From contig NZ_JACJOT010000008.1 in the NCBI RefSeq assembly GCF_014695715.1, forward strand, positions 1,364,001 to 1,428,000: a stretch of 64,000 nt of DNA, given 5' to 3'. The notes under the pieces were generated by a model. That model worked only from the letters and a program-made list of their open reading frames with translations, was not told the DNA's origin and made no database searches. The position numbers and the translations under genes are program-made. Positions 51,038 through 53,861 of the stretch are shown one piece after another. Numbering within the stretch: the first letter of the stretch is position 1; each line of letters starts with the position of its first letter. This DNA is from Microcoleus sp. FACHB-68. GTDB lineage: Bacteria > Cyanobacteriota > Cyanobacteriia > Cyanobacteriales > Oscillatoriaceae.

Positions 51038-52912
51038 ATGGATCGATTTCGAGTAGAAGTTATTTCTAAAACATTAAATCCCCAGCAGGTGGTTTATGGT
51101 GCCCTTCATCAAGATTATAGTGAGGGGTTTGTGTTTGACGAGCGCGAATCGTGGCCGTCTGAGTCAAAATGTGGCGAACTTATTGTTAAGCGTCTTTTAG
51201 CCGGCGAACGTGGGCATTTTGGGCCAATAGAACACGTTCAAATTGTGTTTAATTGTGGCTATTTTCCTCACAGTGTCATGCAGCAGGTACGGACACATCG
51301 TGTGGGAATTTCATTCGATGTACAATGTCTTGGCCCAAACACCGAGATTACCTTTGTCGATTGCGAAGGGCAAAGCGCCAAAAAATTACGCAAGACAATT
51401 GGGGAATTGTACGATCTCTGGACAAACGGAGAAAACGCGATTCGCTCCAGGAACATTCGAGGCAGAAACGGAGAACTGCCCGGAGAATATCGCCGCGATT
51501 GCAAAAAAAGAATCCGCAAAATGCGAATTCGCGTACTGAACGAAGAAACGGGACTGTTTGAATTTAGCCATATCAAAGATGTAACTTGTAGTGGACTTCA
51601 GCCCGTTTATCGCGTAACGCTTGAAGATGGAAAGAGCCTGGACTGCACCGCGAATCATCGACTTTTTACTTCAGAAGGGTGGCAGACAATGGGCGAAGCT
51701 GTTGGATTGACAGCGGACAGGATGACAAAGCAGTGCTTCGTAATGTGCAATGGAACGCTTGCAGCCGGCACAGGTCTTTACCGAGACAAAGCTTGGTTAG
51801 AGACACAGTTAGGCAATGGACTTTACGCAAATGAAATGGCACAGTTAGCGGGTTGCTCAATAGAGGCGGTTAAGAAATGGGTTTATATCTATAGATTGTC
51901 GCTCAACAAAAGACCAATGGAGGGAAGAACACCTTGGAACAAGGGCAATGGAGGATACAAACTCAACCTATCCAAAGAAAGCCGACAGAAACGTCTAGAA
52001 AATGCCAAGAAATATACAAAAAGAGGGGAAGATTCTCATTTCTGGAAAGGCGGCACATCGACTGAACGCGAACTTATAGGTGCGTGGACAAGACAAATTG
52101 CAGCCCAAGTTCACCAAAAATTTAATTACATTTGCCAAAAATGCGGAACAAAAGGAGGCAAGCTTCACGCACATCATTTAGTGCCGGTGTTTGCGGATGA
52201 ATCCCTTGCGTATGAATTTAATAACTTGGTGAGTTTGTGCAAGGAATGCCATGAATATATCCACCAGAATAACGAAGAAGCTGATTTTGCTAAATCTTAC
52301 CAACCAATCTTAGAACCTCAACATTGGCAGCCAAAACCTAAACCTCCTGGTAATAAACTCAGAGCGCATCCCGTCAAAGTCAAAAGTGTGGAGTACCTTG
52401 GCAAACAAATAACTTATGACTTAGAGATTGAAGAACCTTGGCATAACTTTGTAGCGAATGGCATGGTTGTTCACAACTCTAACCGCTACACCGGCAACCG
52501 CATCGCTCAAGCTGCTCAAGGTTTAAAAGATATCGAAGATGTGTTTTATTTACGTCCTGTCGGTCATTATCTGGATCGGCAGGGAAAACGTTATGACTAC
52601 ACTCAGGAAATGCGAGAAAAAGACTTATCTTGGTGTATTGAAGCCGCAAAACGCTATCAGCAACTTCTTGAGCAAGGAGTTTCTGAAGAACACGCAAGAG
52701 GAATTATTCCTTTTGATGTCCGGCAGCATTTTGTCGTATCTTTCAACGCGCGATCTTTAATGCATTTGCTTGACCTAAGAGCTAAACCAGATGCTCAGTT
52801 AGAATGTCAAAAACTCTGCGATCTCATTATGCCGCATTTCAAGGAATGGATGCCTGAATTAGCAGAGTGGTATGAGAAATCCAGGCTAAAAAAAGCGCGA
52901 TTAGCTCCCTAA
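51038..52912 (+). CDS. thyX: FAD-dependent thymidylate synthase ThyX, interrupted by an intein
   Basis: 624 codons: N-extein 1-96, intein 97-480, C-extein 481-624. The joined host protein of 240 residues is a normal ThyX: methylates dUMP to dTMP with methylene-tetrahydrofolate and NADPH through FAD. The ThyX motif is RTHRVGISFDVQ joined to SNRYTG, so the insertion sits in the middle of the signature that binds FAD and dUMP; excision is required for activity. HVQIVFNCGYFPHSVMQQ and the C-terminal FVVSFNARSLMHLLDLR are also typical. ATG 51038. Reading frame is continuous. dcd is convergent next door, so both enzymes serve dUMP/dTMP supply. Confidence 0.95.
   Translation: MDRFRVEVISKTLNPQQVVYGALHQDYSEGFVFDERESWPSESKCGELIVKRLLAGERGHFGPIEHVQIVFNCGYFPHSVMQQVRTHRVGISFDVQCLGPNTEITFVDCEGQSAKKLRKTIGELYDLWTNGENAIRSRNIRGRNGELPGEYRRDCKKRIRKMRIRVLNEETGLFEFSHIKDVTCSGLQPVYRVTLEDGKSLDCTANHRLFTSEGWQTMGEAVGLTADRMTKQCFVMCNGTLAAGTGLYRDKAWLETQLGNGLYANEMAQLAGCSIEAVKKWVYIYRLSLNKRPMEGRTPWNKGNGGYKLNLSKESRQKRLENAKKYTKRGEDSHFWKGGTSTERELIGAWTRQIAAQVHQKFNYICQKCGTKGGKLHAHHLVPVFADESLAYEFNNLVSLCKECHEYIHQNNEEADFAKSYQPILEPQHWQPKPKPPGNKLRAHPVKVKSVEYLGKQITYDLEIEEPWHNFVANGMVVHNSNRYTGNRIAQAAQGLKDIEDVFYLRPVGHYLDRQGKRYDYTQEMREKDLSWCIEAAKRYQQLLEQGVSEEHARGIIPFDVRQHFVVSFNARSLMHLLDLRAKPDAQLECQKLCDLIMPHFKEWMPELAEWYEKSRLKKARLAP
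51326..52477 (+). mobile_element. ThyX intein (384 residues) with HNH homing endonuclease
   Basis: Starts with Cys in CLGPNTEITF (block A). Block B is VYRVTLEDGKSLDCTANHRLF, with the TxxH motif (TANH). The C-terminal part is VKVKSVEYLGKQITYDLEIE, then HNFVANGMVVHN (blocks F and G with the penultimate His and final Asn); the +1 residue is Ser. All splicing residues are present, so it should splice. The centre holds a helix-turn-helix-like segment (YANEMAQLAGCSIEAVKKW), two NUMOD3-like patches (RTPWNKGNGG, EDSHFWKGG) and an HNH nuclease with two zinc pairs (CQKCG and CKEC) around HAHHLVPV and NNLVSLCKECHEYIH. Insert coordinates are given by the Gln-Cys and Asn-Ser junctions. Confidence 0.95.
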
Positions 52913-52954
52913 CAACTGTATAATCACGCTCATTCTTAAGGAGTGCTATTCCAC

Positions 52955-53536
52955 TTAAACTCTGGGTAAAGTCACCATCTCTGATTGATCTTGATATTTA
53001 CCCTGACGAGTTTCATAACTGATTGAACAGGGTTCTCCTTCAAAAAATAGCAGTTGCACGACGCCCTCATTAGCATAAATTCGACAATCAGCACTTGAAG
53101 AGTTAGAAAACTCTAGGGTTAAATGACCTCGCCATGCTGCTTCTGCCGGCGTTATATTTGCGATAATTCCACAACGCGCGTAAGAGCTTTTCCCGATACA
53201 AACTACAGTAATAGTGTCGGGAATTTCTAATCTTTCCAGTGCAACTCCCAAACCGTAAGAGTGTGCTGGCAGAACAAAATAACTGCCGTTTTTATCTGTA
53301 TAAAGCTTTGTTGGTTCTAAATTCTCAGGATTAAAGTTTTTGGGATCGACAACGGTTCCCGGAATGTGGCGAAAAATTCGGAATTCAACGGGAGACAGCC
53401 TGATATCATAACCAAAGCTACTAAGACCGTAGGAAATAACAGGTAGCTCCTCATTGCGTCGAACTAATTTAGACTCAAAGGGAGAAATCATGCCTTTCTC
53501 TGCCATTCGAGCAATCCAAATATCGTTTTTAATCAT
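52955..53536 (-). CDS. dcd: dCTP deaminase
   Basis: 193 residues, the family length. Converts dCTP to dUTP, the precursor of dUMP for ThyX. Conserved parts: IKNDIWIARMAEKGMI, SYGLSSFGYDIRLS, GKSSYARCGI and NITPAEAAWRGHLTLEFSN (catalytic Glu in the last). ATG 53536 gives the family start MIKND; an in-frame ATG 53611 would add 25 unlike residues. Converges with thyX, 42 bp between stops. Confidence 0.93.
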   Translation of the reverse strand: MIKNDIWIARMAEKGMISPFESKLVRRNEELPVISYGLSSFGYDIRLSPVEFRIFRHIPGTVVDPKNFNPENLEPTKLYTDKNGSYFVLPAHSYGLGVALERLEIPDTITVVCIGKSSYARCGIIANITPAEAAWRGHLTLEFSNSSSADCRIYANEGVVQLLFFEGEPCSISYETRQGKYQDQSEMVTLPRV

Positions 53537-53861
53537 CTGTATTTGCTTATAACCGGCAACTCCGGTGAATTTCAGTATTTGAACAGCAACTTTCAAAATT
53601 GCTTGCGGCATTTATAGCCGGCTCAAGATCATATCAATAAACGGGGGCAATTTGTCAACATTGCTTAACAATCTATAGGGAGTGCAGTGATTGTTAAGAA
53701 TCAATAAATATAAGCTGCTGATTATAAACACTAATTAGATACATCTACTCACTGTCAAGCTTAGAAAAATTGCTATCTTGGACTGAACACAACGGATGCC
53801 GGAAATGCCATGTTATCCCGTGTTGTCAATCCTGAAGTTAACTTCTATTAAAGAGGATACG

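Follow-up and report, generated by a model that had tools for sequence, protein, structure and literature searches.

A predicted splicing-competent class 1 intein with an HNH homing endonuclease in the ThyX of Microcoleus sp. FACHB-68

The thyX locus and the borders of the intein

The window (the whole stretch of DNA analyzed, 64,000 nucleotides) was taken from the genome of Microcoleus sp. FACHB-68 (hereafter G000). ThyX is encoded there by an open reading frame of 624 residues (51038-52912, plus strand) that is split by an in-frame intein of 384 residues (51326-52477), running from Cys97 to Asn480 with Ser481 as the +1 residue. The features of the locus are as follows:

51038..51325, plus strand: ThyX N-extein, 96 aa, ending in RTHRVGISFDVQ; Thy1 match; 98% identity to thyX of the congener G002, which is uninterrupted
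51326..52477, plus strand: intein, 384 aa, C1 to N384, +1 Ser; profiles and alignment; scarlessly absent from G002
51647..51658, plus strand: block B, TANH (its Thr and His act in the N-S acyl shift); from the sequence, with T and H in all aligned relatives
51776..51907, plus strand: part of the endonuclease region resembling a helix-turn-helix (two such units in longer relatives); alignment, with HTH profiles matching relatives
51932..52054, plus strand: NUMOD3-like patches (PWNKG ... GEDSHFWKGG); by eye, kept in relatives
52133..52264, plus strand: HNH core; CxxC pairs CQKC and CKEC, plus HAHH / N / H; PF01844, invariant in six members
52373..52477, plus strand: blocks F and G (TYDLEIEEPWHNFVANGMVVHN); TIGR01443 and alignment
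52478..52912, plus strand: ThyX C-extein, 144 aa plus stop, starting SNRYTG; Thy1 match; protein 100% identical to G002

The first codon of the intein is codon 97 (TGT, from 51326) and the last is codon 480 (AAC, to 52477); codon 481 encodes Ser. The Pfam Thy1 profile (PF02511, 1.6e-35) matched in two pieces, residues 1-96 and 481-624, and between them lay matches to Intein_splicing (PF14890, 1.5e-13) and HNH (PF01844, 2e-7 to 3.9e-7, above cut-off). The NCBIfam models thyX (TIGR02170, above cut-off), intein_Nterm (TIGR01445) and intein_Cterm (TIGR01443) also matched in this reading frame. Once the insert was removed, the host protein was continuous at 240 aa, and the insertion point was the conserved SFDVQ/S (the slash marks the junction). 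Because the joined exteins read RTHRVGISFDVQ followed by SNRYTG, the +1 Ser stands at the end of what we take to be the RHR..S signature of ThyX. Exactly 1152 bases are missing from the thyX of G002, with the frame kept; the borders are therefore not a chance result. An earlier, sequence-only reading of this DNA had placed a 384-codon in-frame insert at these positions, between Gln96 and Ser481, and its borders were right to the base, with Pfam, NCBIfam and the empty site of G002 in agreement. The GC contents of the intein (0.444) and the exteins (0.435) were similar and uninformative.

Splicing residues and the predicted reaction

All of the residues expected of a class 1 intein were present: C97, T204 and H207 in block B, the penultimate H479, N480 and the +1 S481. 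The frame is open, and 23 homologues inserted at this position conserve the residues. The N-terminal Cys, TANH, HN ending and +1 Ser named in the sequence-only reading were recovered in the alignment as common property of the homologues. The intein sequence also matched the solved DnaB and DnaX inteins. AlphaFold2, run with a six-sequence alignment, gave mean pLDDT values of 50 for the intein and 41 for the precursor, which were too low for use.

We consider it very likely (probability roughly 0.93) that the element is a full-length class 1 intein with an HNH homing endonuclease (HEN), located at SFDVQ/S of the sole recognizable thymidylate synthase of the genome, and that it splices to yield a 240-aa ThyX. 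The sequence-only reading had called it complete and probably active; completeness was borne out by the domain matches and by all expected catalytic residues, and activity is a prediction from sequence. Inteins of this kind splice by attack of the N-terminal Cys, transfer to the +1 residue and cyclization of the terminal Asn. Here, a 624-aa precursor would be made, Cys97 would attack the Gln96-Cys97 bond, the N-extein would pass to Ser481, and cyclization of Asn480 would release the 240-aa ThyX.

The stretch separating block A from block B contains a 45-residue insert (about residues 21-66 of the intein; 51386-51525 in the window) with an invariant Cys59. Since this insert is kept even in most HEN-less copies of the intein, it may serve splicing and not homing. 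Such retention, together with that of Cys59 and Cys107 by nearly all family members, would suit a regulated splicing reaction in which one of these conserved, non-catalytic cysteines acted as a switch on dTMP supply. That proposal is very improbable: unrelated inteins often have a Cys ahead of their block B Thr (e.g. those in RtcB and DnaX of G000), and the Cys59 region is absent from the two shortest copies.

The empty site in a congener

Intein-free thyX alleles, which the sequence-only reading had proposed to seek in close relatives, were found, including one in the same genus. The thyX of G002 is uninterrupted and encodes 240 aa, and the protein is 99% identical to the joined exteins of G000. 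The flanking DNA of the two genomes is 92-94% identical, and the 1152 bases are gone without a scar. The site was empty in five other genomes of the family that carry a ThyX of the same type (G002 and G004-G007). Because the congener and these other family members have empty sites, a recent horizontal gain in the G000 lineage is the most likely history judged from the sequences, the choice between gain in G000 and loss in G002 being made by parsimony only. Vertical inheritance followed by precise loss from G002 and the other family members is improbable; recombination with an empty allele could give such a loss, and no donor-like co-conversion tract is visible, but the five empty sites and the conflict between the extein and intein trees (below) argue against it.

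A co-conversion footprint beside the insertion was considered and rejected. Of about 21 positions at which the exteins differ from those of G002, four fall within 30 bases of the insertion, but simulation gave P of about 0.1, and the bases near the insertion differ from those of the likely donors.

In G000 and G002, two closely related hosts, an apparently essential gene thus occurs once with the intein and once without it. The pair is an unusually clean one for comparison, and allows straightforward tests of homing, of splicing cost and of dTMP dependence.

Distribution and movement of the family

An intein at exactly the same site was present in 20 of the 100 genomes near that of the window, its own included (tallied by hand). 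Eleven of these copies are long enough to hold an endonuclease, and nine are mini-inteins of 167-266 residues. Class-wide, a relative of the intein was detected in 51 of 390 genomes (E <= 1e-20). At this one site, the family across cyanobacteria displays every stage of the homing cycle, from full-length to HEN-less.

The sequence-only reading had suggested a comparison of intein and extein trees over cyanobacterial ThyX, and the two were discordant. In the extein tree, empty and intein-bearing alleles are interleaved, and at least six changes are needed to account for them. With G002 included, the extein data reject a grouping of G000 and the hosts of the inteins nearest its own (AU p = 1.5e-4), and the intein tree joins G000 to those nearest inteins with moderate support (85-92%). 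The reverse test on the intein data, with G000 placed among the f9 inteins (G083, G065 and G015), was not significant (p = 0.067), and this placement was not rejected. The clearest single case is that of Nostoc sp. CHAB 5844 and G041, whose exteins are 92.5% identical and whose inteins are 63% identical; a single clade was rejected with p = 7e-43. As the extein and intein trees disagree, the sequences indicate that the ThyX intein family moves horizontally. A viral carrier was sought and rejected: no viral contig matched, phage matches were distant, and plasmid matches were short or partial.

The endonuclease domain

The HNH core with zinc pairs described in the sequence-only reading was confirmed by PF01844, and its two CxxC pairs, HAHH, Asn and His are invariant in six aligned family members. 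For the helix-turn-helix it had also described, Pfam HTH profiles matched four of the six aligned inteins and not the window's own copy, where the similarity was seen by eye. Pfam NUMOD3 did not match the NUMOD3-like patches at all; their likeness is by eye, and the patches are conserved in relatives. Both of these sub-calls are by-eye similarities, because the window copy has no Pfam match for either.

In a close pair of copies (G058/G035), dN was 0.063 and dS was 0.62 over the HEN region; for two picocyanobacterial copies, the values were 0.069 and 0.47. In these two pairs, the HEN region is under purifying selection that is weaker than that on the splicing domain, which suggests that the endonucleases of the family are active now or were so recently. 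Synonymous sites are saturated between the window's own HEN and the nearest inteins, so that selection on this copy was unmeasurable. That inteins pass through a homing cycle is established (PMC4071816). Given the family-wide purifying selection and the scattered distribution, we infer that the HNH domain would act on empty thyX alleles, nicking or cutting them, with the intein then copied into them.

It is possible, though doubtful, that the intein still splices while its endonuclease is already inactive, i.e. that it is fixed and in the decay phase of the cycle. Decay is common, as about half of the copies at the site (nine of 20) are HEN-less, and the window's intein has only one HTH unit, with a linker shorter than in the longest relatives. 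However, none of its HNH and zinc residues is lost; G083, G068 and Nostoc share the single-HTH form, which is therefore no private deletion; and the empty site of the congener suggests recent activity.

Dependence of thymidylate supply on splicing

Only one thyX occurs in the genome, which is 6.53 Mb in size and 99.92% complete. A family search of this genome revealed neither ThyA nor thymidine kinase. Because only thyX is present, without ThyA and without thymidine kinase, dTMP supply should depend on splicing; thymidylate synthesis is thus probably splicing-dependent, a conclusion drawn from the absence of known families. The sequence-only reading had expected this dependence unless a thyA existed elsewhere, and the genome search agrees with it.

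Replacement of thyX in a third Microcoleus genome

In a third genome of the genus (G001, L047:7719-11085), a four-gene cassette replaces thyX and dcd in place (compared with window 51038-53611). Its neighbors are the same as those at the window's thyX locus, at 91% and 88% identity. One cassette gene encodes a 513-aa fusion of MtrA-like, methanogen-type thymidylate synthase and PterinBD-DUF4346 parts; TIGR03283 matched it below the curated cut-off, and PF00303 above its own cut-off. The other three genes encode ComEB-like dCMP deaminase, dCTP-deaminase-like and nucleoside deoxyribosyltransferase-like proteins. No mention of DUF4346 was found in the literature searched.

Among the 100 relatives, ThyX of the cyanobacterial type occurred in 50 genomes and the DUF4346-synthase fusion in 29, with no co-occurrence (tallied by hand; nominal Fisher p = 1e-11 with relatedness ignored, and with uncertain assignments for G042, G048 and G017). 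The two therefore appear to be mutually exclusive. Both kinds of thymidylate synthase may coexist in G083, where the 563-aa product of a gene directly upstream of the intein-bearing thyX (L048:5727-7415) matches thymidylate synthase weakly. G021 carries, close to a DUF4346-synthase fusion, a remnant of the ThyX C terminus some 40 residues long (L049:8723-8842), an arrangement suggestive of thyX displacement.

The notion that intein invasion of thyX, through homing breaks or the cost of splicing, helps to drive replacement of ThyX by the methanogen-type cassette at the same locus is a long shot. It would account for the three states of the thyX locus within one genus: intein, empty and replaced.

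Comparison with known ThyX inteins

The intein is ordinary in kind, a selfish element common in cyanobacterial thyX. The Ter ThyX intein of Trichodesmium erythraeum, likened here from the literature by its host protein, also resides in a cyanobacterial ThyX; a ThyX intein of Trichodesmium was reported by Liu & Yang (2004, J Bacteriol 186:6316), as cited in PMC4649490, and in E. coli the splicing of the Trichodesmium ThyX mini-intein is about 100% efficient (PMC3620165). The cyanobacterial Site-a inteins (Laspinema sp. D2d, Nostoc sp. CHAB 5844, the Synechococcus UW140 MAG and others) occupy the identical site and share the splicing domain and HNH/HTH architecture at 60-75% identity. The longest Site-a copies differ in having two HTH units rather than one, and several Site-a relatives have no HEN. 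Mycobacteriophage ThyX proteins carry inteins as well (PMC5050341); those of Colt, Gizmo and others are likewise HNH inteins in a phage ThyX, but they align with the window's intein only in part, at about 35% identity. The Site-b cyanobacterial inteins (L035:697-1617 in G013; L028 in G099) are related in the splicing domain (29% identity over one end and 59% over the other), but are inserted five residues upstream, before SFDVQ, and their nuclease region looks different.

A third ThyX intein site, RGHYG/C, was noted in G066 (L056:627-2381) and G030 (L057:862-2550). The inteins there have an apparently LAGLIDADG-like nuclease and a penultimate Gly rather than His, and the +1 Cys replaces the usual Pro. 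G000 itself has three more inteins, in DnaB-, RtcB- and DnaX-like proteins (contigs C3, C6 and C15; L060, L061 and L064).
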